Shown here piece after piece: positions 39,482 to 58,157 of a stretch of 63,530 bases of DNA. The notes beneath the pieces were generated by a model. That model saw only the letters and a program-made list of their open reading frames with translations, did not search any database and was not told where the DNA came from. Position 1 is the first letter of the stretch, and every line of letters starts with the position of its first letter. The position numbers and the translations under genes are program-made. This DNA comes from an uncultured Hungatella sp. (GTDB lineage: Bacteria > Bacillota > Clostridia > Lachnospirales > Lachnospiraceae): contig CAMUJH010000023.1 of NCBI GenBank assembly GCA_947089145.1, forward strand, positions 1 to 63,530, given 5' to 3'.

Positions 39482-39515
39482 TTTAGGCAGATTGTGCAAT
39501 AAATCTCGAAAGGGG

Positions 39516-40013: not shown

Positions 40014-40244
40014 AATAGATCCAGAGCACTGTAAACAGGATTGAAAGTGGGATCGCTGAAGCATTGGCACAGAGATCAGATTTTCATGGTCATATTGGCA
40101 GAGTTAAGCTGCAGTGGGATTTATGGCTGCGGTATGGCGAAGTATGCCCTGAATATGGATGCGGGGAAGCATAGAGCTGCTTGGCAAACGGCAGGGCATC
40201 AGGAAAGAAAGATCTGTAGTAGATGAAGGAACGGAGAGATGGAT
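40014..40244 (+). other. 231-bp gap between the two NusG-like genes
   Basis: Unusually long for this tightly packed operon. A 61-codon frame in it (40041-40226) has no ribosome binding site or recognisable protein pattern. Partial stem-loops around AGCTGCAG ... GGCTGC are visible. It may be structured leader RNA for the second paralogue, but this is not demonstrated. Confidence 0.35.
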
Positions 40245-40754: not shown

Positions 40755-40837
40755 TCATCGTTCTACAGAATTATGAGAAAAAGATCTGTTAGAAGAGAAA
40801 CAATATAAGCAGATACGTGTGAAAAGGAAAGTGGGTA

Positions 40838-42567: not shown

Positions 42568-43437
42568 ATGGAAGATGTAACATTTATTATTTTGACTAAA
42601 AATGAAGAGATGAATCTTCCGGATTGTCTGGCGTCTATCAAAGAATTTGCAAAACGCATTGTTGTTGTCGATAGTGAAAGCACGGATCAAACATGTGAAA
42701 TTGCAAAAAAAATGGGAGCTGATGTTTATATCCATAAATTTGAGAACTATGCCAGACAATTTAACTGGGGCATTGATAATGCAGGGGTTTCAACTAGGTG
42801 GACATTCAGACTTGATGCTGATGAGAGGCTGACTCCTGCTTTGTGTGCTGAACTTTCCCGGATTATGGCAGAGCATACAGATGACAATATAAATGGTATA
42901 ACAATGGAAGCCTGGCTGTACTTTATGGGAAAAAAAATCAAGCATGGCGCTCACAATAAGAGAAAACTTATGGTTTTTAAAACAGGTATTGGACGAATTG
43001 AAGACAGAAAAATGGATGAGCATACCATATTATCTGAAGGAAAGTCAATTTCATGCAGGGAACGTTTTATTCACTATGATTTTAAGGACATGACTCATTG
43101 GATCAACAAGATGAACTGGTACGCAACTCGGGAAATGCAGGATTATTTTGAATTTATCAGTTCTGGAAATCAGACAGATATAAGCAGAGAAAATGATAAA
43201 GGAATATCCTCCTTGCGCAGGAAGAAATTTGGAGTTTACTATAGATTTCCTATGTTTTTCAGAAACTGTCTGTTGTTTGCCTATTATTATGTTTTTAAAC
43301 TTGGATTTCTTGACGGAAAAGAAGGGTTTGTATTTCATTGGATGTATCATTGGTGGTATCGCGCATTAGTTGATGCAAAAATACTCGAGCAGATGAAATA
43401 TAACAGGCCGTTTAAGGAAACGGGTGATTTGAAATAA
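42568..43437 (+). CDS. Glycosyltransferase family 2
   Basis: 289 residues, GT-A fold: 'TFIILTKNEEMNLPDCLASI' at the N-terminus and the metal-binding DAD in 'FRLDADERLTP'. It resembles LPS-core/WaaE-like GT2 enzymes. It starts directly after the epimerase stop (TAA-ATG). From here to about 49.7 kb the DNA is visibly more AT-rich than the flanks. Confidence 0.88.
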   Translation: MEDVTFIILTKNEEMNLPDCLASIKEFAKRIVVVDSESTDQTCEIAKKMGADVYIHKFENYARQFNWGIDNAGVSTRWTFRLDADERLTPALCAELSRIMAEHTDDNINGITMEAWLYFMGKKIKHGAHNKRKLMVFKTGIGRIEDRKMDEHTILSEGKSISCRERFIHYDFKDMTHWINKMNWYATREMQDYFEFISSGNQTDISRENDKGISSLRRKKFGVYYRFPMFFRNCLLFAYYYVFKLGFLDGKEGFVFHWMYHWWYRALVDAKILEQMKYNRPFKETGDLK

Positions 43438-43465
43438 AATATTGTAAAACAGAGGATGCCAAAGA

Positions 43466-44518
43466 GTGAAAAGAGCTTTATATATCTGCACATCGCAATA
43501 CCAGATTTTTAATGCAGTTAATATTGCAAATGGGCAGGAGTATAGAAAATTTGATAAAGATTTGCTGATTCTTGATATTGGTTCAGGTTTAATCCAACAG
43601 CTGAATTTAAAAAAGATGAAAGAAATCTTTACAGAAATATTTATATACAGAATTTGTACATTTTCCGAAAGAAAGGACAGGGTCTATACATTCCTTGGAA
43701 GAGAACTTATAAGCAGAAGCCCATATGGAATGGATCTGTCTGCAAATTATACAGATGTATTTATTACAGGTACAGAAATGCATTCTAAAATTGTGGCTTT
43801 GAGATATCAAAAACATTGTGCAAAGGTACATTTTTTTGAAGACGGACTTGAGTCTTATGATTCAATTTTGCATACGGGGTATAAACATAAGCAAGATACG
43901 ATTCTCAAGGCAGTATATGGATATCGCTCACTTGATGTCTGTGAAGACTTATATGTCTATAATCCCGATTTTGTCATTAACAACTCCAGAAATCTGCCAT
44001 TGTGTAAAATTGATCCGCCAGCAAGGGATGCTATTATTAATATTACCACTGGGGTTCCGGCCAGGTTTCATAAAAAGTTTGTTTTTCTTAGCGCCTGGTT
44101 TAAAGACATCAGGATGTATGAGGAGCAGGATAAGTATATTTCAATATTATTTAGTGAATATCCTGATGATTACTGTGTAAAAAAACATCCCAGTGATACA
44201 AAAATAGAGCATGAAAAAAAATATAACATAGAAGACTGCGGAAACTTTGAAATTGCAAATGCCATATATGATATGTCTGATAATATATTTGTAACAATCA
44301 TATCAACGGCAGGTTTGACCCCGTTTCTTTTATATAAAAAAAAACCTAACGTGATATTTCTATATAAAATATTCCTGAATAGTTTTAATATGCCGGAATG
44401 GAGTAAAACGGATATAGTGATTAAACGCATGGTACAGAAAATGAGCTATGAGGGAAGGGCTTACTTTCCTGAAAATATAGAACAATATAAAACAGTTCTT
44501 AGGAAACTTGGGGGTTAA
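43466..44518 (+). CDS. Sialyltransferase-like glycosyltransferase (GT52-like), candidate nonulosonate transferase
   Basis: 350 residues starting with GTG 43466 (GAGG about 10 nt upstream). It has the two hallmarks of bacterial sialyltransferases: the acidic E125-D126-G127 motif in 'FFEDGLES' and the H241-P242 motif in 'KKHPSD', plus a later 'ISTAGLTP' Ser/Thr motif. The start 'ALYICTSQYQIFNAVNIA' also fits GT52. Because the operon makes a CMP-activated legionaminic-type sugar, this is the best candidate to transfer it. Family assignment rests on motifs only. Confidence 0.65.
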   Translation: MKRALYICTSQYQIFNAVNIANGQEYRKFDKDLLILDIGSGLIQQLNLKKMKEIFTEIFIYRICTFSERKDRVYTFLGRELISRSPYGMDLSANYTDVFITGTEMHSKIVALRYQKHCAKVHFFEDGLESYDSILHTGYKHKQDTILKAVYGYRSLDVCEDLYVYNPDFVINNSRNLPLCKIDPPARDAIINITTGVPARFHKKFVFLSAWFKDIRMYEEQDKYISILFSEYPDDYCVKKHPSDTKIEHEKKYNIEDCGNFEIANAIYDMSDNIFVTIISTAGLTPFLLYKKKPNVIFLYKIFLNSFNMPEWSKTDIVIKRMVQKMSYEGRAYFPENIEQYKTVLRKLGG

Positions 44519-44523
44519 TAGAT

Positions 44524-46272
44524 ATGGCCTTCTGCATATATAGAGAAATCAATGAATTAAAATATAAATATACAGACACAGCAAAACCATATGTATCAAT
44601 GCTTGCCAGGAATAAGGAACGTATATCTATTGGATGCGGAGAATTTTATTCAGAATTAAAGGTAGCGGTACAAAACGACGGCTCTAGCAGAGAGAACCAA
44701 TATTTTGAACATGCATTAACAATCATTACAGCAGAAAAACAGAGCAAAAATATTACGGTTATGAATTCAGTCAGCGGTTTGGTTCCAATCTACTATTATT
44801 GTTCTGGAAATGGACGTTTTTGTATAGCAGATAATTTTTGGGATGTGATAGATTATATAAATCCAGATGAAACAGATATGGATATAAATTCTATTAAAGA
44901 ACACATGTCAATTCCTTTTCCTCTCTATGACAATACATTTGTCAAAAAAATGAAAGTACTGCTGCCAAATACAAAACTTATATATGATTTTGGGAAAGAC
45001 AGCATTTCTCTTGAGGAACTATTTGATTATGAATATGACGAACGCAACGCCGCTGTGCCGTTAAGCGAAATCCTGGATTCAGCATACAAAAGAATTGATT
45101 GCCTTGTGAAGAAAATATATGCAGAATGCGGCGATATAACATATGGTGTAGGGATCAGCGGGGGATTGGATTCAAGAATAATACCGCATTTTTGTAAAAA
45201 GAACGGATTAAAAATCGCAGGATTTATTTTTGGCATAAAAAGGCCAAACAGACTGTTTTTATCTCAGGATCACCGAAATGCCGGGAAAATAGCAGATTAT
45301 TATGAATTTGAGATGACAGAAGTTAAGTGGACTAATAGAAATCTAAGTAAGCGCATTTTAGAAGAGATAAAATATTTTCCTATGGGATCTGCTGAATTTT
45401 TTAAGTATGAACCGATTGATGACTTTGATGTTCTAATACATGGCGGGAACGGATATGTAGTAGGAAGTTCTTTGCCGGAAAATATCGAATCCATGACAGA
45501 AAATGAGCTTGTAGATTCAATTCGGAAACTTGGCCTTATCTTTTACCCAAACTCTCTGTTTAATCTGCGCATGGAAAAGATTGTCAGATTTCTGACAAAC
45601 AGAGATAAAAAGATTGAACGCAGACCAGAGTGGTTTGATAAAGTTATATTTCCGGACATTGAAAAAAATATTATTGATAAGCTGCAAGAATATGTAAAAA
45701 GTGAAAAATTAAAAGGAAAGAGTAACGTTTATATATTTGAAAAATATTTTCATTATCAGCTGGGATGCAAAAATAAATTCGGTGCATTTGAAAGCCTGAG
45801 TGGAAATAAGAGAAGTTTTTCTATTTATATGCCGTATTTGTTCGGAGATACGCTATCATGGGGGTTAGACTGCTTTAAAGGGAGAAAGTTCCTGAAGAAA
45901 TTTATTTTAACCTATATTCCTGAACTTGGAAATATAGAAGAGCAAAACTATAAGGGAAACATAAAAGCAAAACGGAGCGGTACAATAAGCAAAATAATAA
46001 ACCTTGGTAAATTTACCGTCAGAGGCAATGGGACTTCAGCAGTGGAAGTAAGGTATTTTAAAAAGAATATTTCTGCGTTTAAGGCAACGATGAATAATGG
46101 AACAGTATGGTTTTATAATATTTTTAATATTGAGAACTATATTGACGCCATAGCTAAATTTGATAATACAAGGGTTGCTTCAAGGCTGTGGAAGTTAAAA
46201 ATGGTTATAGATATTATAGAGAAAAAAGAGTACAAAAGCATGATTATGAATATAGAAGAGGAAAAAGTATGA
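44524..46272 (+). CDS. Asparagine-synthetase-like ATP-dependent amide-forming enzyme
   Basis: 582 residues. An N-terminal Ntn-like region lacks the Cys2 nucleophile ('MAFCIYREIN'), so there is no active glutaminase. The C-terminal synthetase domain has the PP-loop SGGLDS (212-217). Such proteins adenylate a carboxylate and form an amide. In glycan loci they are thought to amidate uronic acids or attach amino acids; beta-lactam synthetases are a comparable non-glutaminase branch. It overlaps the racemase gene by ATGA, indicating coupled function. Confidence 0.75.
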   Translation: MAFCIYREINELKYKYTDTAKPYVSMLARNKERISIGCGEFYSELKVAVQNDGSSRENQYFEHALTIITAEKQSKNITVMNSVSGLVPIYYYCSGNGRFCIADNFWDVIDYINPDETDMDINSIKEHMSIPFPLYDNTFVKKMKVLLPNTKLIYDFGKDSISLEELFDYEYDERNAAVPLSEILDSAYKRIDCLVKKIYAECGDITYGVGISGGLDSRIIPHFCKKNGLKIAGFIFGIKRPNRLFLSQDHRNAGKIADYYEFEMTEVKWTNRNLSKRILEEIKYFPMGSAEFFKYEPIDDFDVLIHGGNGYVVGSSLPENIESMTENELVDSIRKLGLIFYPNSLFNLRMEKIVRFLTNRDKKIERRPEWFDKVIFPDIEKNIIDKLQEYVKSEKLKGKSNVYIFEKYFHYQLGCKNKFGAFESLSGNKRSFSIYMPYLFGDTLSWGLDCFKGRKFLKKFILTYIPELGNIEEQNYKGNIKAKRSGTISKIINLGKFTVRGNGTSAVEVRYFKKNISAFKATMNNGTVWFYNIFNIENYIDAIAKFDNTRVASRLWKLKMVIDIIEKKEYKSMIMNIEEEKV

Positions 46273-46973
46273 GAAAAAAACTGGGTATTATCGGCGGTAT
46301 GGGACCATGGGCAACCTCTTATATATTTGAAAAAATTATTGATACCGTAGATGCTGATACAGATCAGGATCATATTCATACTTTTATAGATAGCAATACA
46401 GAGATAACGGATCGGACAAAAGCAATTACAGAAGGGGCAACTTCCCCGGTTGCAGAAATTAACAGGTCAATAGAAAAGCTGGAACAGTGCGGGGCAAGCG
46501 TTTTTATTCTGCCCTGCAATACATCTCACTATTTTTTTGAAGACTTTAAGTGCAGTAAGTCCAGCATCATTATAAATATTATTGAGGTTACTGTAAAAGC
46601 ATGCATGGATATGGATAAGTCAGGAAAGTTTTGCATTTTAGCAACCAATGGGACTATAGATTCCGAACTGTACCAAAAGTGTTTTGACAGTCATAAGCTG
46701 AATTATACCATACCAGACAAAGATTTCCAGCAGGCAATTATGGATATGATATATAAAGTAATAAAAAACGGAGGAGACTATAACAAGTTAGACGGATTGA
46801 CGGAATTTTTTGAACTTCAAATAAAAAACGGAGCAGGGTATTTTGTTTTGGGATGTACTGAATTGTCAATGCTGATGCAGCGGCCGGCTTTTAAGAAATA
46901 TAGAATGATTGATTCATCTTTGGAACTGGCAAAGTCTGCTATTATTGAATGCGGTTATCCGATGAAAAGTTAG
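46269..46973 (+). CDS. Aspartate/glutamate racemase family protein
   Basis: 234 residues, PLP-independent racemase fold. The start is 'KKLGIIGGMGPWATSYIFEK', with two catalytic cysteines, C83 in LPCNTSHY and C196 in LGCTELSM. It interconverts L- and D-Asp or Glu. ATG 46269 overlaps the preceding stop; the frame is open upstream only inside that gene. A racemase within a polysaccharide operon, translationally coupled to an asparagine-synthetase-like enzyme, suggests a D-amino acid decoration of the glycan. Substrate not determined. Confidence 0.85.
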   Translation: MRKKLGIIGGMGPWATSYIFEKIIDTVDADTDQDHIHTFIDSNTEITDRTKAITEGATSPVAEINRSIEKLEQCGASVFILPCNTSHYFFEDFKCSKSSIIINIIEVTVKACMDMDKSGKFCILATNGTIDSELYQKCFDSHKLNYTIPDKDFQQAIMDMIYKVIKNGGDYNKLDGLTEFFELQIKNGAGYFVLGCTELSMLMQRPAFKKYRMIDSSLELAKSAIIECGYPMKS

Positions 46974-47034
46974 GAAGCAATTATAAATAGGATCATCCGC
47001 ATAACTATATAGATTGATTTGAGGATATACTTCT

Positions 47035-48561
47035 ATGCACATTAAAGCAGGACAAAGCATGTATAAAAATACGGCTTGGCTAATCATTCTTTCTGTCGCT
47101 CTTAAAGGAATAGGATTCATTAACCGAATCGTTATTGCATATTTTTTTGGAACGACAATTAAAACAGATATCTATTACATTGCCAGCGGATTTATTGATG
47201 GCTTATCGAGCATTATTTTAGCAAGTCTTAGTGTAGGAATAATCAGTATATATATTAAAGAACAGACTAATGGGAACAGCAGCAAATTCCTGACTAATAT
47301 TTTGGCCTTTGTTGAACTTGTAATGTTTGCTCTTACTGTTGGATGCTATGTTACGGCTCCATGGCTGTCTATTGTTTTAGCTCCTAATTTAGATAGTTTA
47401 AATTTATCAAAATTATCAGAATATATATCAATTTTAACAATTACAATACCTTTTATTGGAGCAGGCAGTGTTATAAGTGCTGCACTTCAGGCTGAAAACC
47501 ATTTTGCTCCTGTTAAATTAATGGGGACAATTACAAGTGCAGTAAGTATACTGTCAGTAGCCATATTGTCTAGGTCGTTAGGAGAAAAGGCGTTATGCGT
47601 TTCTTACATAGCAGGCAATGTTCTTAATGCGGTCTTTGTATTTATTTGTATCAGGAAAGACTACTTATTTAAAATTAAGGATATTAAACTGAATAAAAAT
47701 AAAATAATAAATTTACTGAACTTAACATTCCCATTGATGATAGGACTGGCGGCCCATGAGATAAATCTGATGATAGATAAGTCTTTGGCAACATCCCTGA
47801 CTGCAGGAGCCGCTTCCGCTTTATCGTATTGCAGTGTTTTATATTTATTTTTAGAAAACACAATTATAAATAGCATTGTAACAGTCCTTTATCCTAATCT
47901 GGTTAAGCATAGAGCAGAGAATCATAACAAGCTGATTGCAAAAGAAACAGGAAAGGCAGTTTATTACACAGAATTAATATTGATTCCGCTTGTTATTGTG
48001 ACATTCTTTTTTTCGGATACAATTGTTTCTCTCATGTATCAAAGAGGAAAGTTTGATGCAGCATCCTTGTCCCTGACTAGTTTTGCTTTGAAGGGATATA
48101 TCATTGGCCTTCCATTGGTAGCAATCAGGGATATTGCAACAAGAGTATATTATGCTTATGATGATACCAAAATTCCCTTAAGAATAAATTTGATGTCTGT
48201 ATGTGTCAATATATTTCTTGACTTTGCATTAGGAAGAGTATTAGGGATTATGGGAATTACCTTGGCAACAACAATATCTAATGGGTTTTCGGCAGTTACA
48301 CTATTCAAATTGCTTCATAAACATAATAACAGCATCAGAGTTAACCTGATTAGCCTAATACTGCTGTTGGCTTATATATCTGCCGGATGTATATGCTGTA
48401 TGCTGGCATTAAATTATGAAACACACAGGATGGCTCAGTTGTCTGCTTCAGCGGCGGCTGTTTTTATAATAGAATTATTATTCTTATATTTATTTGACAG
48501 GAAGACAATTACAGCTGCCTGTGGTTACATTAATCCAAAATGCAGGGAGAAGGATAAATGA
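47035..48561 (+). CDS. MurJ/MviN-type oligosaccharide-lipid flippase (Wzx role)
   Basis: 508 residues with about 13-14 membrane segments. It belongs to the MurJ/MVF branch of the exporter superfamily ('GFINRIVIAYFFGTTIKTDIYY', 'SLMYQRGKFDAAS', 'RVYYAYDDTKIPLRINLMSV'). In this operon it most likely flips the undecaprenyl-linked repeat unit, replacing a classical Wzx. GAGGAT precedes the ATG. The polymerase gene overlaps its end (ATGA). Confidence 0.85.
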   Translation: MHIKAGQSMYKNTAWLIILSVALKGIGFINRIVIAYFFGTTIKTDIYYIASGFIDGLSSIILASLSVGIISIYIKEQTNGNSSKFLTNILAFVELVMFALTVGCYVTAPWLSIVLAPNLDSLNLSKLSEYISILTITIPFIGAGSVISAALQAENHFAPVKLMGTITSAVSILSVAILSRSLGEKALCVSYIAGNVLNAVFVFICIRKDYLFKIKDIKLNKNKIINLLNLTFPLMIGLAAHEINLMIDKSLATSLTAGAASALSYCSVLYLFLENTIINSIVTVLYPNLVKHRAENHNKLIAKETGKAVYYTELILIPLVIVTFFFSDTIVSLMYQRGKFDAASLSLTSFALKGYIIGLPLVAIRDIATRVYYAYDDTKIPLRINLMSVCVNIFLDFALGRVLGIMGITLATTISNGFSAVTLFKLLHKHNNSIRVNLISLILLLAYISAGCICCMLALNYETHRMAQLSASAAAVFIIELLFLYLFDRKTITAACGYINPKCREKDK

Positions 48562-49670
48562 GAATTAGAATAGATGAAAAAATCTCCTTTACAGATGCAT
48601 ATATATTCTTGTATTTATTGATCTATTTCGTACATTATTTTGGGAATTTCAGTTTTAACATTACATATTCCTTTTGGATTATGACAGGCCTTGCAGGCCT
48701 TTTTACTGTTTTTGACAGAAGGTCGGAATACAGTAATTATGCAATCAGGCTGCTCTTTATAGATTTGTTTGCAGCTATAGGACTGATAGTAAATAGGAAC
48801 CGTTCTCCATTTACAGTCTTGATGCTTCCGGTTTCGCAGATGTTTGGAATATATTTATATAAATATAGGGAAAATCTTAGGCTGGTTAACAGGATTGTGA
48901 ATTTAATGTACGTTTATATTGTACTGTATGCAATTTTTATTCCGCCAAGGCTGGTTAGCGCCAGCCAGGGGATCTATTCCACAAGATTTTCAAGGCTTGT
49001 TGGAGGAAATACCGTTTCTATTTTCCTTATTATGTTTTTATCAATTGGTTTAATCTACAAAACATATAGCGGCAGAAAAAACTATTTTATGTTTATAATA
49101 TCGTTACTTGTTGCATACCGATGCGGAGGAAATGGAGGCGTTTTATCTATTTCAGTTTTTTTAATTGGCTTAATCACATTACAATGGGATAAAAATAAAA
49201 TGTCGAAGAAAAGAATATTGTTTATAGTTATAGCGGGCTATGGGCTGATCTGCTATTTTGGCTATCAGCAAAAACTGTGGAATTTCCTTACTGACGACAA
49301 TTCCCGATTTTGGATTTGGTCAAAATACTTGGAATGCATGACAAACTCTGCTAAAGACTTTCTGTTTGGAGCATCAGTTGACAGATATTCTTTTTTGGCG
49401 GAGCAGAGAAATATGCATAATACCTTTTTCAACCTGCATTATTACTATGGAATCATTCCTGCGCTTTATTATATTGTGATGATCATCAGCTTATTGATGC
49501 TAAGTATTAAAAAGGGAAACTATTTGCTGTTAGTTATTCTGGGCGTAACAGTAATAAGAGGGATGACAGATGAGACTGCTTTTTGCTTTATCTCACTGTG
49601 GACTTATGCCTGTTTATTGTTAAAAAGTAATGAGATATCTATTTTTCGAAGAAACATGATTTCTGAATAG
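48558..49670 (+). CDS. Wzy-like O-antigen/polysaccharide polymerase
   Basis: 370 residues with about ten membrane segments and a large outer loop, the topology of Wzy polymerases; primary sequence is poorly conserved, as usual for this class. Motif-like stretches are 'RFSRLVGGNTVSIFLIM' and 'NMHNTFFNLHYYYGIIPALYY' (the 'HN-F' pattern of O-antigen ligase/polymerase proteins). Overlaps the flippase gene by 4 nt, supporting a Wzx/Wzy-type assembly pathway. No Wzz-like chain-length regulator or tyrosine kinase is seen in the window. Confidence 0.75.
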   Translation: MRIRIDEKISFTDAYIFLYLLIYFVHYFGNFSFNITYSFWIMTGLAGLFTVFDRRSEYSNYAIRLLFIDLFAAIGLIVNRNRSPFTVLMLPVSQMFGIYLYKYRENLRLVNRIVNLMYVYIVLYAIFIPPRLVSASQGIYSTRFSRLVGGNTVSIFLIMFLSIGLIYKTYSGRKNYFMFIISLLVAYRCGGNGGVLSISVFLIGLITLQWDKNKMSKKRILFIVIAGYGLICYFGYQQKLWNFLTDDNSRFWIWSKYLECMTNSAKDFLFGASVDRYSFLAEQRNMHNTFFNLHYYYGIIPALYYIVMIISLLMLSIKKGNYLLLVILGVTVIRGMTDETAFCFISLWTYACLLLKSNEISIFRRNMISE

Positions 49671-49706
49671 TATTCTAATATAAATTAAAAGCAGGAGGCA
49701 ATTAAG

Positions 49707-50816
49707 ATGAAGTACTGTAAGAAGTGTGTAATGCCCGATACCAGACCGGGAATTTCTTTTAACGCAGAGGGAGTCTGCTCCGCATGCCAGGCCTATGAAC
49801 GGAGAGCTTCTATTGATTGGAAGGCCCGTTGGAAGGAATTTGAGAGAATCTGCGATAAATACCGCGGCATGAATGGCCCTGGCCATGATTGTGCGATTGC
49901 AGTTTCAGGCGGCAAAGACTCCCATTATCAGGTTTATCTGATGAAGAATGTGATGCATATGAATCCGATTCTTTTCTCAGTAGAGGATAATTTCCCTATG
50001 ACTAAGGCCGGAATGCATAATCTTAAAAATATCTCTGAAGAGTTCGGATGCAGCATTATCAGCATGAAACCGGACATTAAGACGCAGAAGAAGCTGATGC
50101 GTTATATGTTTGAGAGATACGGAAAGCCTACATGGTATATTGACCGCCTTATCTACACGTATCCCCTTATTATGGCCGAAAAATTTAATACTCCTTTGCT
50201 GGTCTATGGTGAGAATATCAGCTATGAATACGGGGGAAGAGATGCTGCGGATACATATTCAGCGCGGGAACAGCTGAACAATGGAGTGGCATCTGGAATT
50301 GATGAACAGGAACTGATTGAAAATACCGGAGTAACGAAGAAGGATCTTTACCTTACCAGAGCACCAAAGCAGGAGGTGCTGGACATGCTTGATCCTGTTT
50401 ACATTTCTTATTTTACTCAATGGAATAGTTTTGCAAATTATGAATTTGCACGTAAACATGGATTCCACGATTTGTCACATGAGTGGGATAGAGCGCAGCA
50501 TGTTGAGAATTTTGATCAGGTAGATTCCCGCGCTTACTTGGTTCATCCATGGCTTAAATATCCGAAATTCGGACATGCCTTTGCAACCGATTATTCTGCG
50601 CGAATGGTTCGATATGGAATGATTAACAGGGAAGAGGCAGTAAAATTAGTAAAAGAACATGATCCTGTTTTAGACCCTCTGTGTGTAAGGGATTTCTGCG
50701 ATTTCTGCGGATATACGGAAACAGAGTTTTGGAATATTGTTGACAATCTGTACAACAGGGAGATTTTTGAAAAAGACCACTTAGGCAGATGGGTATTGAA
50801 ACATCCAATTGAGTAA
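49707..50816 (+). CDS. N-acetyl sugar amidotransferase (WbpG/PseA type)
   Basis: 369 residues. An N-terminal cysteine cluster 'YCKKCVMPDTRPGISFN' with 'CSAC' is followed by the PP-loop 'IAVSGGKDSHYQV' and a C-terminal 'DFCDFCGY'. Members convert an acetamido to an acetamidino group on sugars such as pseudaminic, legionaminic or mannuronic derivatives. The WbpG type needs a HisH/HisF-like ammonia-supplying pair, which is absent from this window, whereas PseA acts without it being encoded nearby. AGGAGG ribosome binding site. It begins the more GC-balanced legionaminic block. Confidence 0.88.
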   Translation: MKYCKKCVMPDTRPGISFNAEGVCSACQAYERRASIDWKARWKEFERICDKYRGMNGPGHDCAIAVSGGKDSHYQVYLMKNVMHMNPILFSVEDNFPMTKAGMHNLKNISEEFGCSIISMKPDIKTQKKLMRYMFERYGKPTWYIDRLIYTYPLIMAEKFNTPLLVYGENISYEYGGRDAADTYSAREQLNNGVASGIDEQELIENTGVTKKDLYLTRAPKQEVLDMLDPVYISYFTQWNSFANYEFARKHGFHDLSHEWDRAQHVENFDQVDSRAYLVHPWLKYPKFGHAFATDYSARMVRYGMINREEAVKLVKEHDPVLDPLCVRDFCDFCGYTETEFWNIVDNLYNREIFEKDHLGRWVLKHPIE

Positions 50817-50848
50817 TTATAAAACCATTTTAATGAAGGAGAGACGGA

Positions 50849-52054
50849 ATGTTTAATTTAAATAGATTCATATCGGATAATGTGATCATGCGCCAGCAGT
50901 CTATGTTTTTGCCAGACATTGAGGCCAATAGAGACGCACTGTGCAGGAAAATTAAGGACAGGACAGTGCTTGTTATTGGGGGATCAGGCTCCATTGGTTC
51001 ATCCTTCGTTCGTGCTCTCCTTCCCTTTAAACCAGCATCTTTGGTTGTGGCAGATTATAATGAAAACGCATTGGCAGAATTGACACGGGATCTGCGCTCC
51101 ACTAAGGGAATGTATGTACCTGACGAGTATATTACATATCCTATGGATTTTGCCTCTCATGTTTTCGAAAAAATGTTCAGATCAAGAGGAGGATTTGACA
51201 TTGTAGGAAACTTTTCTGCACATAAGCATGTAAGATCTGAGAAAGATATCTATTCCATAGAGGCGTTAATGCAGAATAATGTGCTTCATGCCCGGCATCT
51301 TTTGGATTTGTTGGCTGAATACCCTCCGGATGAGTACTTTTGTGTGTCAACAGATAAAGCGGCCAATCCTGTTAATATTATGGGAGCAAGTAAGAGAATT
51401 ATGGAAGACGTGATTTTTTCTTATTCCGATAAGTTTCCGGTTAAGACGGCCCGATTCGCTAATGTAGCTTTTTCTAACGGTTCTCTTCCAGCGGGATTTC
51501 TGGCACGTATACAAAATCTGCAGCCATTGTCTGCACCTTCTGATGTAATGCGCTATTTTGTTTCTCAGGAAGAGGCTGGCCAAATTTGTATGCTTGCCTG
51601 TATGCTTGGGAATAATCGGGAAATATTTTTCCCCAAATTTGAAAAGGCCCAGATGCTGGGCTTTGACAAAATTGCAACACGGTTTTTACAAGAACAAGGG
51701 TATGAGGTAATGCGTTGCTTTTCTGACGAGGAAGCGATTGATAAGGCGGAAGCCTTAAAGAGAGGAAGCCGCAGCTATCCGGTTCATTATTTCGCTTCGG
51801 ATACGACAGGGGAAAAAGTGTGGGAAGAATTCTACACTGACACTGAGGAAGTTGACATGGACAGACTTGTATCCCTTGGGGTAATTACAGGCAAAGGGAT
51901 TCCGGATAAGGAAAAAGTAAAGTGCTTGTTTGAAGCCCTTGCCAGTGCTTTTGCTGCGGACACAAGCAAGGAAGAAATTATTACAATTTTGAAAGGATAC
52001 CTGCCTAATTTTGAACACATTGAAAAGGGCAAATCCCTGGACAGCAAGATGTAG
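50849..52054 (+). CDS. legB: Nucleotide-sugar 4,6-dehydratase, LegB-like
   Basis: 401 residues, extended SDR of the CapD/FlaA1/Polysacc_synt_2 group: 'VLVIGGSGSIGSSFVRALL', 'GNFSAHKHVRSEKD' and 'CVSTDKAANPVNIMGASKR' with the modified active-site Tyr-to-Met seen in this dehydratase class (MGASK instead of YGASK). In legionaminic acid synthesis LegB makes the 4-keto-6-deoxy sugar from GDP- or UDP-GlcNAc. It is followed 18 nt later by the LegC aminotransferase. Confidence 0.85.
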   Translation: MFNLNRFISDNVIMRQQSMFLPDIEANRDALCRKIKDRTVLVIGGSGSIGSSFVRALLPFKPASLVVADYNENALAELTRDLRSTKGMYVPDEYITYPMDFASHVFEKMFRSRGGFDIVGNFSAHKHVRSEKDIYSIEALMQNNVLHARHLLDLLAEYPPDEYFCVSTDKAANPVNIMGASKRIMEDVIFSYSDKFPVKTARFANVAFSNGSLPAGFLARIQNLQPLSAPSDVMRYFVSQEEAGQICMLACMLGNNREIFFPKFEKAQMLGFDKIATRFLQEQGYEVMRCFSDEEAIDKAEALKRGSRSYPVHYFASDTTGEKVWEEFYTDTEEVDMDRLVSLGVITGKGIPDKEKVKCLFEALASAFAADTSKEEIITILKGYLPNFEHIEKGKSLDSKM

Positions 52055-52071
52055 TGGGAGGTTTTTAGAGT

Positions 52072-53247
52072 ATGAGCCGGTATATTCCGCTTTCGATCCC
52101 TAATTTCGAGGGAAATGAACGCAAATATGTGGATGATGCGATTGACAAGGCCTGGGTTTCAACTGCAGGTTCTTATGTTACAGAACTGGAAAAAAGGCTG
52201 GCACAATTTCTGTGTATTGATAATGTTTCGGTTTGCCAAAGCGGGACATCAGCTCTCCATTTGGCCCTTGTAGAAGCAGGGGTGGTTCCTGGAGATATTG
52301 TTCTGGTTCCTCCTTTGACCTTTATCGCGGCGGTTAATCCTGTACGGTATCAGTTCGCAACACCTCTGTTTATTGACTGTGATGACAGTCTTTGCATGGA
52401 TTCAGAAAAACTACGGCGTTTTTGCCAGGAAAAGTGTGTGATGGAGAATGGCCATCTTACTCACAACGGAAAAATAGTGCGGGCTCTTGTGGCGGTTCAT
52501 GTATTCGGCAATATGGCTGATATGGAAACAATCATGGAAGTAGCCGGGAGGTATAATATCAGGGTAATTGAGGATGCCACGGAAGCACTTGGCACCAGAT
52601 ATACAAAAGGAACGTATTCCGGGAAATACGCAGGAACGATCGGAGATTTTGGAGCCTATTCCTTCAATGGCAACAAAATCATTACTACTGGAGGCGGCGG
52701 GGCAATAACAGCTAAAAAGCCGGAAACGGTTGATCATCTTCGTTATCTGTCCACGCAGGCAAAGGATGATCCCCATTTTTACATTCATAACGAAGTCGGT
52801 TATAACTACCGTATGACAAATCTGCAGGCAGCTCTTGGCGTTGCACAGATGGAAAAACTGACAGAATTTATTGAGCGCAAGCACAGAAATTTTGATTTGT
52901 ATAAAAAATTATTTCATGGGTTTGGACTAGGGAAACTGTTGCCTTATAGAGAAGGTACATACTCCAATCAGTGGTTTTATTCGCTAATCATAGATCGAAC
53001 TAAAGTAAAAGCTGCACTAAAAGAAATTATTGCGGGACTGCAGGAATACGGCGTGGAAACCAGAGCCGTCTGGGGACTGATTAACGAACAGCTTCCTTAT
53101 ATGAAGGAAGAATGCTTTGAACTTGAAAAGGGACCTTACTATGGGGCAAGAGTCCTGAATATTCCTGCCAGCACCCAGCTTACAGAAGACGATATTTACT
53201 TTGCGGCAGAGAAGATAAAGGCAGTACTTGAGGAGCTAAAAGAATGA
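52072..53247 (+). CDS. legC: LegC-family PLP-dependent aminotransferase
   Basis: 391 residues of the DegT/DnrJ/EryC1/StrS aminotransferase fold. The start 'IPLSIPNFEGNERKYVDDAI' and 'AWVSTAGSYV' are typical of LegC, and the PLP lysine is K202 in 'FNGNKIITTGGGG'. It places the amino group at C4 of the keto sugar, which becomes N7 of legionaminic acid. The stop overlaps the start of the next gene (ATGA). Confidence 0.9.
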   Translation: MSRYIPLSIPNFEGNERKYVDDAIDKAWVSTAGSYVTELEKRLAQFLCIDNVSVCQSGTSALHLALVEAGVVPGDIVLVPPLTFIAAVNPVRYQFATPLFIDCDDSLCMDSEKLRRFCQEKCVMENGHLTHNGKIVRALVAVHVFGNMADMETIMEVAGRYNIRVIEDATEALGTRYTKGTYSGKYAGTIGDFGAYSFNGNKIITTGGGGAITAKKPETVDHLRYLSTQAKDDPHFYIHNEVGYNYRMTNLQAALGVAQMEKLTEFIERKHRNFDLYKKLFHGFGLGKLLPYREGTYSNQWFYSLIIDRTKVKAALKEIIAGLQEYGVETRAVWGLINEQLPYMKEECFELEKGPYYGARVLNIPASTQLTEDDIYFAAEKIKAVLEELKE

Positions 53248-54293
53248 TTAATAGTGAACTTCAAAAGTTCATAGGGCATGATAATCTGACAGTCTTTCAG
53301 GCCATGCAGAGAATTGATGCAAATGAACACGGTATTTTGATAATCACGTCTCCATCGGACAAGCTGATAGGCAGCCTGTCCGATGGAGACGTGAGGCGCT
53401 ATCTTCTTTCTGGCGGGAGGCTTGAAGACAACGTGACTCTTGCAACAAATAAACATCTTAAGACTGCTTACAGTTATGATGAGGCAGTTTCCCTGTTTCA
53501 TAAAAAAAATTATATTGCTATACCTCTGGTTGATGAGAACAGAAACATTGTCAGCATATATCTTGGAAATGAACGGACAGAGCTTCCAAAACCGCCGATT
53601 CATATTCCTGTAGTGATTAATGCCGGAGGTAAAGGAACCCGCTTGGAACCCTATACAAAAATTCTTCCAAAACCTTTAATACCAGTGGGGGAACTGCCGA
53701 TCATTGAACATATCATGCGGCGGTTCCAGGAGTATGACTGCCAGGAGTTTCATATCATTGTAAATTATAAAAAACAGATTATGAAAGGCTATTTTGCAGA
53801 GAATGAAGGAAAGTATAACATTATTTGGCATGAGGAAGAGAAAATGCTGGGCACCGGCGGTGGTCTGACTCTCCTCAAGGGAAAGATTCACGAAACTTTT
53901 TTCTTTACTAATTGTGACAACCTTCTCATGTCAGATTATGACAGCGTGATTCGCTTTCATAAGAAAAATCAAAATGTTGTCACAATGATCTGCGCATATA
54001 AAAATATTCAGATTCCATACGGCGTAGTTGAGATGGGAATGAATGGTTCCATTGAAGAAATGAAGGAAAAACCGCAGTTCTCTTTTTTAACAAATACTGG
54101 TATCTATGTTGTTGAACCAGAAGTCCTGGAAGATATGGAAGACGGAATTGCCATAGGATTTCCGGATGTTGTTGGGATGCAGATTGCAAAGGGAAGGAAT
54201 GTGGCTGTTTATCCCGTAAGCGAAAATGAGTGGCTTGATATGGGCCAGCTTCCGGAACTGGAAAGGATGCGTAAAAAACTGTATGGTGAGTGA
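53244..54293 (+). CDS. PtmE/LegE-like sugar-phosphate nucleotidyltransferase with CBS pair
   Basis: 349 residues. A CBS-domain pair (about 1-112, 'GSLSDGDVRRYLLSGG') is fused to a nucleotidyltransferase domain ('VVINAGGKGTRLEPYTKILPK', 'TGGGLTLLKG', 'FFTNCDNLL'). This is the architecture of Campylobacter PtmE, which makes the GDP-activated glucosamine derivative for the legionaminic route. The CBS region is encoded by DNA that forms an 18-bp perfect hairpin (53344-53394). Confidence 0.85.
   Translation: MINSELQKFIGHDNLTVFQAMQRIDANEHGILIITSPSDKLIGSLSDGDVRRYLLSGGRLEDNVTLATNKHLKTAYSYDEAVSLFHKKNYIAIPLVDENRNIVSIYLGNERTELPKPPIHIPVVINAGGKGTRLEPYTKILPKPLIPVGELPIIEHIMRRFQEYDCQEFHIIVNYKKQIMKGYFAENEGKYNIIWHEEEKMLGTGGGLTLLKGKIHETFFFTNCDNLLMSDYDSVIRFHKKNQNVVTMICAYKNIQIPYGVVEMGMNGSIEEMKEKPQFSFLTNTGIYVVEPEVLEDMEDGIAIGFPDVVGMQIAKGRNVAVYPVSENEWLDMGQLPELERMRKKLYGE
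53344..53394 (+). repeat. 18-bp perfect inverted repeat inside a coding region
   Basis: 53344-53361 pairs perfectly with 53377-53394 around a 15-nt loop (arm core ACGTCTCCATCGGACA). It lies in the first CBS motif of the PtmE-like gene and encodes 'SPSDKL...LSDGDVRRY'. A stem this long inside a gene is unusual and could cause polymerase pausing or mRNA processing. Confidence 0.85.
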
Positions 54294-54295
54294 GT

Positions 54296-54394
54296 ATGGA
54301 AAAGATTGTAATCATTGGGTATGGCGGTCATGGAAAGAGTGCGGCTGACAGCATCAGGGCAGCAGCGCATTTTGAGATTGGGAGGGCAGCATAA
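54296..54394 (+). pseudogene. Truncated NeuD/LegH-type acetyltransferase N-terminus
   Basis: A 32-codon frame reading 'MEKIVIIGYGGHGKSAADSI' then 'RAAAHFEIGRAA', ending with TAA that overlaps the next ATG (TAATG). The start matches the N-terminal PglD/NeuD nucleotide-binding motif of sialic/legionaminic acid acetyltransferases. The rest of the protein, including the left-handed beta-helix acetyl-CoA domain, is absent. The last codons (GGGAGGGCAGCA) serve as ribosome binding site for the following formyltransferase. Most likely a deletion remnant of the N-acetyltransferase gene. Confidence 0.75.
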
Positions 54395-55284
54395 TGAAAA
54401 TAGGGTATTTTGCCGACGGCCCCTGGGCACATAAAGCCTTGGCCAGACTGGCAGAAGATAAAGACATTGAGATTTCCTTTATTTGTGTAAGATACGATCA
54501 CCAGGATTCGGTTTTGATCGAGGAGGGAAGAAAACAGAAGATTGACGTGCTCTGGCACAAAAATATCAATTCCGCTGATTTTATAGAACGGATAAAGCCA
54601 TATGGCTGCGATTTGTTCGTTTCCATGTCGTTTAATCAGATCTTCAAGACGGAAATCATAAATATTCCTCCGTTAAAGACCATTAACTGCCACGCAGGCA
54701 GGCTTCCCTTTTACCGGGGAAGAAATATTCTAAATTGGGCGCTGATTAATGATGAGAAGGAATTTGGCATTACGGTCCATTATGTTGATGAAGGAATTGA
54801 CACCGGAGATATTATTCTGCAGAAAGTATATGAAATTACGGATGAGGATAATTACCAGACCCTTCTGACCAGGTCTTACGCCGGATGCGCAGATGTTCTG
54901 TATGAAGCTGTCCGGCAGATTCTGTCTGGCAGGGTTCAGCCTATAAAGCAGGACAGCATTGATCCTGTGGGAACGTATTGCGGAATGAGAGGGCCAGGAG
55001 ACGAACTGCTTCAATGGAACCAGACCAGCAGGGAAATCTTTAATTTTGTAAGAGCAATCTGCGCACCGGGGCCTATGGCATTGACCTTTGTGGATCATGT
55101 TCCTGTTTCGGTTAACAGGGTATCCATCATAGCAGGGGCGCATACATATAAAGGAATTCCCGGTCAGATTATCGGCAAGACAGAAAGGGGCTGGCTTGTT
55201 AAGACTCAGGACACGATGATAGAGCTTGAAGAATACAAGACAACAGGCAGACTGGGCATAGGAAAGAGGTTTAAGAATGAATAG
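54394..55284 (+). CDS. Sugar N-formyltransferase
   Basis: 296 residues of the methionyl-tRNA formyltransferase-like fold that uses N10-formyl-tetrahydrofolate to formylate an amino sugar. The catalytic triad N98, H100 ('INCHAGRLPFYRGRN') and D136 ('DEGIDTGDII') is intact and spaced as in known sugar N-formyltransferases. A C-terminal Fmt-C-like domain follows ('RAICAPGPMALTF'). It sits between the nucleotidyltransferase/aminotransferase genes and NeuB, exactly where the N-acetyltransferase is expected, so it probably formylates the C4 (later N7) amine of the legionaminic precursor. Confidence 0.85.
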   Translation: MKIGYFADGPWAHKALARLAEDKDIEISFICVRYDHQDSVLIEEGRKQKIDVLWHKNINSADFIERIKPYGCDLFVSMSFNQIFKTEIINIPPLKTINCHAGRLPFYRGRNILNWALINDEKEFGITVHYVDEGIDTGDIILQKVYEITDEDNYQTLLTRSYAGCADVLYEAVRQILSGRVQPIKQDSIDPVGTYCGMRGPGDELLQWNQTSREIFNFVRAICAPGPMALTFVDHVPVSVNRVSIIAGAHTYKGIPGQIIGKTERGWLVKTQDTMIELEEYKTTGRLGIGKRFKNE

Positions 55285-56284
55285 CACAAAGCATATATGC
55301 ATTATTGCCGAGGCAGGAGTTAATCACAATGGGAGCATGGACATAGCAAAGCAGCTTGTGTGCAGGGCAAAAGAGTCCGGTGCGGATTACATCAAATTTC
55401 AGACGTTTGTCCCTGAAAATCTGGTATCCCGGTTCGCTCAGAAGGCAGAGTACCAAAAAGAAACTACAGGAGAGAAAGAGACACAGCTTCAGATGCTGAG
55501 GAAACTTGCCCTGACCTATGATGATTTCCATATGCTAAAAGAGTACTGCATGGAAATGGGAATCGGATTTGTCTCCACGCCGTTTGACTTGGACAGCATT
55601 GATTTTTTAGAGAGCCTGGATATGGATTTCTGGAAAGTGCCTTCCGGGGAGATTACAAATCTTCCGTATCTGGAGAAGATAGGAAAAACAGGCCGGGATG
55701 TTGTGCTTTCCACCGGAATGTGCCAGATAAAGGAAATCCGGGATGCCCTGGAGGTGCTTGAGAAAAACGGAGCCGGGAATGTTACAATCCTGCACTGCAA
55801 TACAGAATATCCGACTCCATATACAGATGTAAATCTGAAGGCAATGGCTCACATACAGAGGGAAACGGGACTGCCTGTGGGGTATTCGGATCATACGGCT
55901 GGAATTGAAATTCCCATAGCAGCGGCAGCCCTCGGTGCGGCGGTGATTGAGAAGCATTTTACCCTGGATAAAACCATGGAAGGCCCAGACCATAGGGCAA
56001 GCCTGGAGCCGGACGAACTGAGGCAAATGGTTTTGGCTATCAGGCATGTTGAGGCTGGGCTGGGGGATGGGATCAAAAGAAGAACAACATCTGAGAGCAA
56101 AAATTTGTCTATTGTAAGGAAAAGCGTTGTGGCAAAAAGGAATATAGCAAGAGGCGAAGTACTTACAAAGGAGAATATCACTGTAAAGAGGCCGGGAAAT
56201 GGCATCAATCCAATGAAGTGGAACGAAATTATCGGAACCTTTGCAAGCAGGGATTTTATTGAGGATGAGTTGATAGAACTATGA
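55277..56284 (+). CDS. neuB: N-acetylneuraminate/legionaminate synthase
   Basis: 335 residues that condense PEP with a 6-deoxy-mannosamine derivative to form a nonulosonic acid. The TIM-barrel NeuB domain has 'IIAEAGVNHNGSMDIA', 'KFQTFVPENL', 'HCNTEYPTPYTDVNL' and 'GYSDHTAG', followed by a C-terminal SAF antifreeze-like domain ('VAKRNIARGEVLTKENITVK'). In this context it is the LegI equivalent. Overlaps the formyltransferase by 8 nt and NeuC by 4 nt. Confidence 0.93.
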   Translation: MNSTKHICIIAEAGVNHNGSMDIAKQLVCRAKESGADYIKFQTFVPENLVSRFAQKAEYQKETTGEKETQLQMLRKLALTYDDFHMLKEYCMEMGIGFVSTPFDLDSIDFLESLDMDFWKVPSGEITNLPYLEKIGKTGRDVVLSTGMCQIKEIRDALEVLEKNGAGNVTILHCNTEYPTPYTDVNLKAMAHIQRETGLPVGYSDHTAGIEIPIAAAALGAAVIEKHFTLDKTMEGPDHRASLEPDELRQMVLAIRHVEAGLGDGIKRRTTSESKNLSIVRKSVVAKRNIARGEVLTKENITVKRPGNGINPMKWNEIIGTFASRDFIEDELIEL

Positions 56285-57471
56285 AAAGAATTGTGATTTT
56301 AACAGCTACGCGGGCTGAATATGGATTACTGCAGCCTATAATCAAAAAACTTCAGCAGGAGACAGACTATGAAATGCTCCTTGCGGTAACGGGAATGCAC
56401 CTTTCACCGGAGTTTGGGCTGACTGTGCAAGAAATAGAATGTGACGGCATACCGATAAACAAACGAATTGAGATCGTTCTAAGCTCAGATACTCCGGTTT
56501 CGATTTCAAAATCAATGGGGCTAGCCATGATTAGCTTCTCAGAATATTTTGATGAGTGTAAGCCGGATGCATTAATGGTTTTAGGGGATCGGTATGAAAC
56601 ACTTGCCGTATGCTGTGCGGCGATGAATGCAAGAATTCCTATTTTCCACCTTAATGGCGGGGATGTGACTGAGGGCATGGTTGATGAGGCTGTCAGGCAT
56701 TGTATTACTAAGATGAGCTACCTCCATTTTGCCAGTACTGAGGCTTACCGAACCCGTATCATTCAGATGGGAGAAAGCCCTGACAGAACGTTTCATGTAG
56801 GTGCCATGGGAGTTGAAAATGCGTTGCATATCATGCCGGTACCTCTATCTGAATTAGAAGCTAGTATTGGGTATGAATTAGGAAATCATTATGCGGTTGG
56901 AACCTTTCACCCTGTCACGCTGGAGAATTCAACAGCAGAAACTCAGATCAGGGAGATATTGTCTGCAATAGACTGCCATAAGGACATCCGCTTTTTATTT
57001 ACAAAAGCGAATTCGGATGCAAACGGAAGAATAATCAACCAAATCCTGTCTGATTATGCTGCAAAAAATTCAAATTTATATCTGGTTGATTCTCTTGGAA
57101 GAAAACGGTATATGAGCGCACTAAGGTATGCAGAATTCGTCATTGGAAATTCTTCCAGCGGATTAATGGAAGCCCCAAGTTTTGGTATTCCTACGATTGA
57201 TATTGGAGATCGCCAAAAAGGGCGTATAGCGGGAGAAAGCGTTATTCATTGCCGGCCCGACAGAGCGTCAGTCAATGAAGCAATAGACTTGGCGCTGTCA
57301 GAGAATTTTAAGAAAATAGCCAGCAATGCAAAAAATCCATATGGGGATGGCAATACTTCTGTGAAAATATTGGAGATTATTAAAGATTTCATGGAACATA
57401 ACAAAATTAACTTAAAAAAGAAGTTTTACGACATTGCATTTTCATTGACAGAAAGCATAGGTGCACAATGA
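56281..57471 (+). CDS. neuC: UDP/GDP-sugar 2-epimerase, hydrolysing (NeuC/LegG)
   Basis: 396 residues, GT-B fold. Motifs are 'LTATRAEYGLLQPIIKKL', 'VLGDRYETLA', 'HLNGGDVTEGMVDEAVRH' and 'IGNSSSGLMEAPSFGIPTID'. It epimerises C2 with release of the nucleotide, giving the free mannosamine-type substrate for NeuB. The C-terminus extends some 15 residues past the usual end ('LKKKFYDIAFSLTESIGAQ'). Translationally coupled to both neighbours by ATGA overlaps. Confidence 0.92.
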   Translation: MKRIVILTATRAEYGLLQPIIKKLQQETDYEMLLAVTGMHLSPEFGLTVQEIECDGIPINKRIEIVLSSDTPVSISKSMGLAMISFSEYFDECKPDALMVLGDRYETLAVCCAAMNARIPIFHLNGGDVTEGMVDEAVRHCITKMSYLHFASTEAYRTRIIQMGESPDRTFHVGAMGVENALHIMPVPLSELEASIGYELGNHYAVGTFHPVTLENSTAETQIREILSAIDCHKDIRFLFTKANSDANGRIINQILSDYAAKNSNLYLVDSLGRKRYMSALRYAEFVIGNSSSGLMEAPSFGIPTIDIGDRQKGRIAGESVIHCRPDRASVNEAIDLALSENFKKIASNAKNPYGDGNTSVKILEIIKDFMEHNKINLKKKFYDIAFSLTESIGAQ

Positions 57472-58157
57472 ATCATATTGCGGTTATTCCGGCAAGAAGC
57501 GGATCGAAAGGGTTAAAAGATAAAAACATAAAATTGTTAAATGGAATTCCTCTTATTGGATATAGCATAACAGCAGCAAGAAAGTCTGGGCTTTTTTCTC
57601 ATATAATGGTTTCCACGGACAGCCAGGAATATGCAGAGATAGCTATGGCGCAGGGAGCAGAAGTGCCCTTTCTGCGATCTCCCAAAACCAGCAGTGATGA
57701 GGCTGGAAGCTGGGATGTTGTCAAAGAGGTGCTTGCCGGATATGCGGAACAATTCAATACGGTTTGCTTACTGCAGCCAACATCGCCGCTGAGGACAGCA
57801 CAGGACATAATCAATGGTTATACAGAACTTGAGGCAAAAAAAGCTGACGCAATTACTGCTGTCTGCAAAATGGATCATTCGCCACTGTGGTCAATGACCT
57901 TAGATGAGGACTGCTCGTTAAGTGAATTCCGCAGGAATTTGCAGATAGTCCCGCGGCAGATGATGAAAATTTACTACCAAATAAATGGTGCATTATATAT
58001 TAGAAAAATTACTTATTCTGCTGAAGGCAATATAGCCTTACATAATGATAAAGAATATGCAGTAATTATGGAGCGCAGTCGAAGCGTGGATATTGACACG
58101 ATTGAAGATTTTGAATATGCAGAATACTTAATCAGAAAAGAAAAAAATCTATTATAA
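57468..58157 (+). CDS. neuA: CMP-nonulosonate cytidylyltransferase (NeuA/LegF)
   Basis: 229 residues, with 'VIPARSGSKGLKDKNIKLLNG' CTP-binding motif, 'VSTDSQEYAEIA' and 'LLQPTSPLRTAQDI'. It activates the nonulosonic acid as the CMP-sugar for the transferase, presumably the GT52-like enzyme at 43466-44518. Last gene of the glycan operon in the window; no clear terminator hairpin follows. Confidence 0.92.
   Translation: MNHIAVIPARSGSKGLKDKNIKLLNGIPLIGYSITAARKSGLFSHIMVSTDSQEYAEIAMAQGAEVPFLRSPKTSSDEAGSWDVVKEVLAGYAEQFNTVCLLQPTSPLRTAQDIINGYTELEAKKADAITAVCKMDHSPLWSMTLDEDCSLSEFRRNLQIVPRQMMKIYYQINGALYIRKITYSAEGNIALHNDKEYAVIMERSRSVDIDTIEDFEYAEYLIRKEKNLL

Follow-up and report, generated by a model that had tools for sequence, protein, structure and literature searches.

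A short open reading frame with the N-terminus of a NeuD-type acetyltransferase stands directly before a sugar N-formyltransferase gene (hereafter FT) in an operon for legionaminic acid (Leg), which raises the question of which enzyme acylates the amino sugar in this organism and what became of the acetyltransferase. The window, that is, the whole stretch of DNA analysed here (63,530 nucleotides), corresponds to contig C23 in a draft genome of 4.46 Mb that comprises 127 contigs and is 87.4% complete. A sequence-only reading of the window had proposed that FT replaced a deleted NeuD/LegH acetyltransferase in this strain.

The Leg operon and the frame upstream of FT

The operon runs on the forward strand in the order WbuX, dehydratase, LegC, PtmE, remnant, FT, NeuB, NeuC and NeuA. 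It begins with a WbuX/PseA-type N-acetyl sugar amidotransferase (49707..50816; TIGR03573, 340.8 bits against a cut-off of 203.2), which likely performs a 5-acetamidino step. Next come a nucleotide-sugar 4,6-dehydratase in the LegB position (50849..52054), a LegC-type aminotransferase (52072..53247; TIGR04181, 415.1 bits, just below the cut-off of 420) and a PtmE-like protein with CBS and nucleotidyltransferase domain matches (53244..54293). FT (54394..55284) is followed by the NeuB/LegI condensing enzyme (55277..56284) and the NeuC/LegG hydrolysing 2-epimerase (56281..57471), both assigned by profile matches, and by a NeuA/LegF-type CMP-sugar synthetase assigned by Pfam (57468..58157). This NeuB is the single one of the four in the genome to score over the NeuB cut-off. 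The dehydratase matches the named dehydratase models weakly (FnlA, 61.8 bits against a cut-off of 730), so its LegB label rests on its position and on 68-75% identity to the dehydratases of five related loci (L040, L113, L177, L178 and L186). All the other Leg steps had been described as present and translationally coupled; the whole set (dehydratase, LegC, PtmE, NeuC, NeuB and NeuA) was found together in the window, with adjacent genes from LegC through NeuA overlapping or no more than 2 nt apart, LegC falling 5 bits short of its cut-off and the dehydratase match being weak. As for a dedicated LegH, we found no NeuD-family match on the contig and, among the scanned genes (39492-58157), no acyltransferase family besides that of FT; the proteins at 39492, 43466 and 48558 gave no family match at all.

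The 5' side of the operon, towards the end of the window, is occupied by a surface-polysaccharide cluster with a NusG-like gene, a sugar transferase, an NAD-dependent epimerase, a glycosyltransferase and a MurJ/MatE-type flippase. A distant asparagine-synthase-like protein (44524-46272) overlaps an Asp/Glu-type racemase (46266-46973), which scores 188.4 bits with cysteate racemase against a cut-off of 190; the pair possibly serves amino-acid decoration of the glycan. The 350-aa protein at 43466-44518, with no NCBIfam or Pfam match, sits where a nonulosonic-acid transferase could be placed. The WbuX-type gene (49707-50816) shares 71-78% identity with its counterparts in L039, L046, L063, L092 and L178, a higher value than for most of their remaining genes, which may reflect recent exchange or strong constraint.

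The frame between PtmE and FT (54296..54394, forward strand) comprises 32 codons, with its ATG at 54296 and its TAA at 54392-54394, and translates as MEKIVIIGYGGHGKSAADSIRAAAHFEIGRAA. It lies 2 nt downstream of PtmE, and its stop codon shares 1 nt with the FT ATG at 54394, as the sequence-only reading had noted. NeuD homology covers residues 1-28 (54296-54379) and includes the G-x-G-G-H motif and the start of the PglD_N domain; the last codons, GRAA, may or may not be the old NeuD C-terminus. Pfam reports PglD_N (PF17836) over its curated cut-off (25.6 bits against 23.4, E 1.8e-5) and no hexapeptide match, the left-handed beta-helix catalytic domain, in the 32 codons. The PglD_N family is named for a C4 N-acetyltransferase. 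Residues 1-28 align without gaps to residues 1-28 of the NeuDs of Leg operons, with 16 of 28 identical to the NeuD of L188 (the best), 15 to that of L163 and 14 to that of L177, so that the claimed kinship with NeuD proteins held on alignment. When 12,228 small ORFs of 20-60 codons on both strands of the window and 81 loci were ranked with a NeuD profile built without the remnant, the remnant came first at 26.4 bits, followed by a frame at 19.2 bits and a third at 6.4 bits. A chance small ORF is ruled out by this first rank. The evidence supports a reading of the frame as the N-terminus of a NeuD/PglD-type gene.

The frame ranked second lies upstream of a related FT in Halochromatium roseum (L094, 7878-7967); it is a NeuD N-terminal stub of 29 codons, which scored 19.2 and 20.6 bits in two NeuD-profile scans and for which Pfam reported nothing at E 0.1. 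Its presence bears on whether such a frame is a working mini-gene, a translational leader in which ribosomes leave PtmE, cross the stub and re-start on FT. The spacing in the window would suit this, with the 2-nt gap, the 1-nt overlap and a Shine-Dalgarno-like GGGAGG (54380..54385) that is predicted from its sequence, begins exactly where the NeuD homology ends and stands 8 nt upstream of the FT ATG, and so would the similar length and place of the stub in L094. However, such stubs occur in just 2 of 82 loci (the window and 81 scanned), and a gap of 27 nt separates the L094 stub from the GTG of its FT. We therefore regard a leader as very unlikely to be the explanation of the frame, although a leader role is compatible with its being a NeuD remnant. 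The chance that the deletion is an artefact of assembly or sequencing is negligible: the genome is an incomplete, fragmented draft, but the junction is internal to a contig that measures 63.5 kb or more and the clean frame ends at a ribosome-binding-like site. Among 26 genomes of the genus, that of the window included, we found no sister strain that shares this junction; one further genome (G008) carries an FT relative (56% identical), and its locus (L010) has no stub.

FT and its relatives

FT has 296 aa and matches both Formyl_trans_N (PF00551, 83.1 bits) and the C-terminal formyltransferase domain Formyl_trans_C (PF02911). The residues N98, H100 and D136, the catalytic triad of formyltransferases, had been described as intact; they are, and they are invariant in 36 aligned sequences of the family (36 of 82). 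The predicted structure has a mean pLDDT of 95.2, and its fold is nearest to those of ArnA's formyltransferase domain and of Fmt (the six best matches have TM 0.85-0.89), followed by 10-formyl-THF dehydrogenase and then by the nucleotide-sugar formyltransferases FdtF, QdtF, WbkC and WlaRD. By domains, site residues and modelled fold, FT belongs to the sugar N-formyltransferases, and formyl transfer is its predicted reaction. The genome has two other formyltransferase-like genes (C69 and C19). Two other identities for FT were rejected: methionyl-tRNA formyltransferase, on a TIGR00460 score of 128.1 bits against a cut-off of 201.5 and on the Leg-operon context, and PseJ, to which FT matches with 45 bits over about 113 residues, and FT carries the PF02911 C-terminal domain.

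Relatives of FT were collected from 106 stretches of a species-level genome collection, of which 80 loci, 50-67% identical, were kept. A NeuB homologue is present in 70 of these 80 loci (58 share at least 50% identity, 8 share 40-50% and 4 less than 40%), LegC in 67, PtmE in 67 and NeuC in 60. NeuB lies directly 3' of FT in 54 loci (52 with at least 50% identity). The gene directly 5' of FT is LegC in 31 loci, NeuD in 15 and PtmE in 9, while in 16 it is none of the genes sought. An intact site, a place after LegC (31/80) or before NeuB (54/80) and the missing LegH are together most simply explained if FT formylates the C4 amine. Since all 10 loci without a NeuB match have a LegC-like match, FT possibly serves a sugar that is not nonulosonic in some organisms. 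Two of these ten (L073 and L103) have a contig that ends directly after FT; in the others FT may act on a different sugar.

The view of FT as a switch peculiar to this strain did not survive the comparison, in which it appeared as one case of a widespread enzyme, with 80 relatives under about fourteen phylum labels according to the record titles. The labels include Bacillota, Bacteroidota, Pseudomonadota, Campylobacterota, Spirochaetota, Planctomycetota, Verrucomicrobiota, Chlorobiota and Cyanobacteriota; an individual label could be mistaken, since many of the genomes are metagenome-assembled. Within the family of the window, FT was found in 5 of 397 genomes, its own included.

A second, distant formyltransferase-like gene was found by Pfam near NeuB and NeuC in L126 (7757-8503). 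Further weak second matches of this kind, 25-30% identical, occur in L048, L055, L064, L075, L080, L083, L093, L095, L096 and L109.

The position before NeuB: NeuD, FT or neither

Anchoring on NeuB in the 397 family genomes identified 35 sites, one of them the window, spread over 34 genomes, and the flanks of the other 34 sites were read. Two of the 34 carry the FT family, one with NeuD (L179) and one without (L193). In the 32 FT-less operons, NeuD immediately precedes NeuB in 21 (the L185 copy is split into two frames), lies nearby in 2 (L166 and L192) and is absent from 9. A full-length NeuD had been predicted in the slot of relatives, and it was seen in the family operons L177, L178, L186 and others. 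The clearest counterpart is L178, which shares 75% identity with the window in the dehydratase, 66% in LegC, 61% in PtmE, 71% in WbuX and 63% in NeuB, and which has a full NeuD after the PtmE/WbuX set, followed by NeuB, NeuC and NeuA.

Two distinct NeuD types occupy the slot in the Leg operons of Lachnospiraceae (L161-L194). The type of the remnant is found in 15 of the 31 longer FT-less loci; the second type fills the slot in eight FT-less operons (L161, L162, L166, L168, L176, L181, L187 and L190) and groups on the NeuD tree with NeuDs found elsewhere in the genome of the window. In three of the nine operons with neither NeuD nor FT, a FemAB-like gene lies 5' of NeuB, assigned by Pfam in L164 and L165 and by the look of the sequence, one gene further off, in L189, and this suggests an aminoacyl option at the N-acyl step. 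The FemAB-family genes near NeuB include L164:6928-8013, L165:8982-10037 and L126:8520-9626, the last of which adjoins FT. The NeuDs adjacent to FT (L056, L057, L061, L076 and others) stop shortly after the final hexapeptide turn, some in GGG, and are without the usual G-N/V-P-A tail, as are several NeuDs in FT-less operons.

The grouping of the second type bears on whether another protein of the NeuD family could acetylate C4 in trans, with FT formylating elsewhere or little. A TIGR03570 (NeuD) search of the genome gave 36 matches, none on the contig of the window. Three exceeded the cut-off (in C20, in C11 and in a formyltransferase-NeuD fusion in C24), a fourth gene of the family, of full length, lies in C11 (139 bits), C33 has a partial match and the rest are weaker. 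A complete legH elsewhere had been named as evidence against replacement; these four genes are of this family and, because they branch with the second, slot-filling type, they could be a source of acetylation. Nevertheless, all sit in other clusters, and by the look of their neighbours (deacetylase-like, fatty-acid-type and other glycan genes) none is beside Leg genes; one C11 copy also aligns poorly to the remnant (7 of 17 residues). We judge supply in trans to be highly improbable. The C24 gene (L124:6856-8178, reverse strand) is a natural fusion of 440 aa that joins a formyltransferase-type domain to a PglD/NeuD acyltransferase; its formyltransferase half has SLHP where N-x-H is expected, and a DegT-like aminotransferase adjoins it by look.

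NeuD and FT are not mutually exclusive. Among the 15 loci with NeuD directly 5' of FT, 12 have both genes apparently intact, and all 12 NeuDs keep the E-H of the His that is presumably catalytic. The exceptions are L108, where NeuD is truncated by the contig end; L103, where the NeuD match is split over two frames about 30-670 nt upstream of FT, possibly by sequencing error; and L113 (Bacterium 1XD21-70, from 8001), a mirror case in which NeuD is whole and FT is broken at codon 37, where it has an in-frame stop, with more stops late in the frame. The order PtmE-NeuD-FT-NeuB is found in L046, L052, L063, L064 and L067. A replacement of one gene by another is thus too simple: the proposal stands in that FT is intact in the LegH position and NeuD is reduced to a remnant, and it fails in that the change was not made in one step, with 12 of 80 loci keeping both.

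NeuD of any type is rarer with FT than without it (7/24 against 21/31, Fisher p 0.0066, odds about fivefold), in a test that ignores relatedness and compares two sets gathered in different ways. For the remnant's type alone the figures are 6/24 and 15/31, with p 0.098, or 0.053 without L113. The test covered FT-bearing Bacillota loci of at least 12 kb, by which 28 became 24 (L010, L053, L062 and L067 were dropped, and L067 has NeuD), and set aside anchored loci below 7 kb (L187, which has NeuD, and L195, which has NeuD and FT). The pairs L046/L179, L054/L193, L050/L196 and L067/L195 were treated as the same contigs and each counted once. L113, with its broken FT, was counted as FT-bearing, and L190, whose NeuD scores 98 bits, as NeuD-less; with L190 recounted and L113 dropped, p becomes 0.0021. 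L058, whose NeuD lies away from FT, was counted as having NeuD in the any-type test and not as having the remnant's type; its scores with the two type profiles are 100 and 202 bits, and its inclusion would weaken the by-type test further.

On the FT tree (81 of the 82 rows, L113 left out and L053, L066 and L084 unlabelled for too little upstream DNA), NeuD is present in 14 rows and its distribution requires 14 changes, of which well supported branches force at least 11; it is no more clustered than shuffled labels. The tree alone would fit gain or loss of NeuD alike. We read the whole as repeated loss of NeuD beside FT and now and then the reverse, with a moderate association.

The loci that keep both genes also suggest that NeuD and FT may not do the same job. 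NeuD might add another decoration, for instance an O-acetyl group, while FT was always the C4 N-acylating enzyme, in which case the loss of NeuD replaced nothing. E. coli NeuD is described as O-acetyl-adding, and the association is weak when restricted to the remnant's type. For Halorubrum sp. PV6, the excerpted report lists a candidate formyltransferase, a NeuD homologue, termed an O-acetyltransferase homologue, and a separate LegH candidate (PMC6137143). Against this, NeuD occupies the expected N-acylation slot, directly upstream of NeuB, in most FT-less operons, the remnant matches PglD_N, and NeuD is lost or broken beside FT in several lineages. We consider separate jobs unlikely, and clearly less so than a translational leader or acetylation in trans. 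Two further observations weigh against the reading we prefer, in which FT took over the acylation once done by NeuD: nine of the 32 FT-less operons have no NeuD either, and L113 has kept NeuD while its FT is broken.

The proposed pathway and its counterparts in known systems

Excerpts of two reports describe the pathway as one in which LegC makes the C4 amine and LegH acetylates it before LegG, LegI and LegF act (PMC6388019, PMC6137143). In the operon of the window, we think it likely that the N-acyl step after LegC is carried out by FT, not by a NeuD-type acetyltransferase, and that the product is of the 7-N-formyl Leg type; with FT directly after the 28-codon NeuD remnant, the sugar is probably formylated where many relatives acetylate it. 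FT would take formyl from N10-formyltetrahydrofolate and transfer it to the C4 amine of the nucleotide-linked 4-amino-4,6-dideoxy-N-acetylglucosamine made by LegC. NeuC, NeuB and NeuA would then act, the C4 nitrogen becoming N7, to yield CMP-7-N-formyl-Leg, and the WbuX-type enzyme would probably add a 5-acetamidino group. According to an excerpt, PtmG is the CMP-Leg5Am7Ac acetamidino synthase (PMC13317340); the WbuX gene belongs to a wider family than PtmG, and the 5-acetamidino-7-formamido product is a prediction for this operon. The ancestor very likely had the order PtmE-NeuD-FT-NeuB, and the deletion would have removed NeuD, sparing 28 codons and ending just before the ribosome-binding-like site of FT, by which, we propose, FT expression was kept.

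More widely, and tentatively, the slot before NeuB may be a single interchangeable N-acyl position held by NeuD (acetyl), FT (formyl) or a FemAB-type enzyme (aminoacyl), passing through two-enzyme states and repeated loss of one partner that leaves stubs or broken copies. The group at N7 of this sialic-acid-like sugar would then be an evolvable surface epitope and the window a frozen step of the switch. Leg-type sugars are surface-exposed and mimic sialic acid, and the N7 group alters how lectins and antibodies see them. If FT has the function that its position implies, N-formyl forms are made by a large number of the operons predicted to be for 'legionaminic acid', gene-content predictions that assume 5,7-di-N-acetyl-Leg are wrong for those operons, and the stubs are a visible trace of how the switch between acetyl and formyl happens.

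Several elements of this proposal are not new: N-formyl-Leg and PseJ are already known, and a formyltransferase in the slot of an acetyltransferase has been proposed before. Among the matches listed in the open-access literature, we found no paper on a bacterial Leg-pathway formyltransferase and nothing on a wide FT family of Leg operons, its alternation with NeuD or the stubs. The best PDB sequence match of FT, and the best fold match by E-value, is the N-terminal formyltransferase domain of ArnA, at about 25% identity. ArnA also acts on a nucleotide-sugar C4 amine, its substrate being UDP-L-Ara4N, and it is fused to a second enzyme domain. PseJ is a formyltransferase that works at an acetyltransferase step of the Pse, not the Leg, pathway. 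It was found in the PDB (6ci2/6ci4) as a match to FT, but differs in scoring 45 bits, where ArnA scores 91, and in having chains of 192-217 residues, whereas FT has a C-terminal formyltransferase domain.

The LegH/PglD-NeuD acetyltransferases, the family of the gene deleted in the window, act at the step after LegC, as described in excerpts of PMC6137143 and PMC6388019; they add acetyl, and in the operon of the window only 28 codons of one are left. The excerpted text of PMC6388019 names N-formyl as one of the groups known to occur on N5 and N7 in these sugars, and excerpts of PMC12102941, PMC7725333, PMC10083409 and PMC3184161 contain nothing on a Leg formyltransferase. Halorubrum sp. PV6 carries N-formyl-Leg on its S-layer glycoprotein; in its gene region, as in the window, the Leg genes are accompanied by a candidate formyltransferase (HrrPV6_1050), together with a homologue of NeuD (1051) (excerpt of PMC6137143). 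In contrast to the window, the system is archaeal, the formyl group was assigned to N5, NeuD is present and a separate LegH candidate is named; its formyltransferase is called 'possible' in the same excerpt, and is likened to FT here by description. Closer in gene arrangement are two systems known to us from excerpts, Geobacillus PSS1, where fmt3 is proposed in the fdtC slot (PMC5109656), and Pectobacterium, with Fmt3 against WbbJ2 (PMC4875605). In both, as in the window, a formyltransferase gene takes the position that an acetyltransferase gene has in another strain or species, but both belong to other glycan islands and neither excerpt describes a remnant of the lost gene, which in the window is still visible (PMC5109656, PMC4875605).
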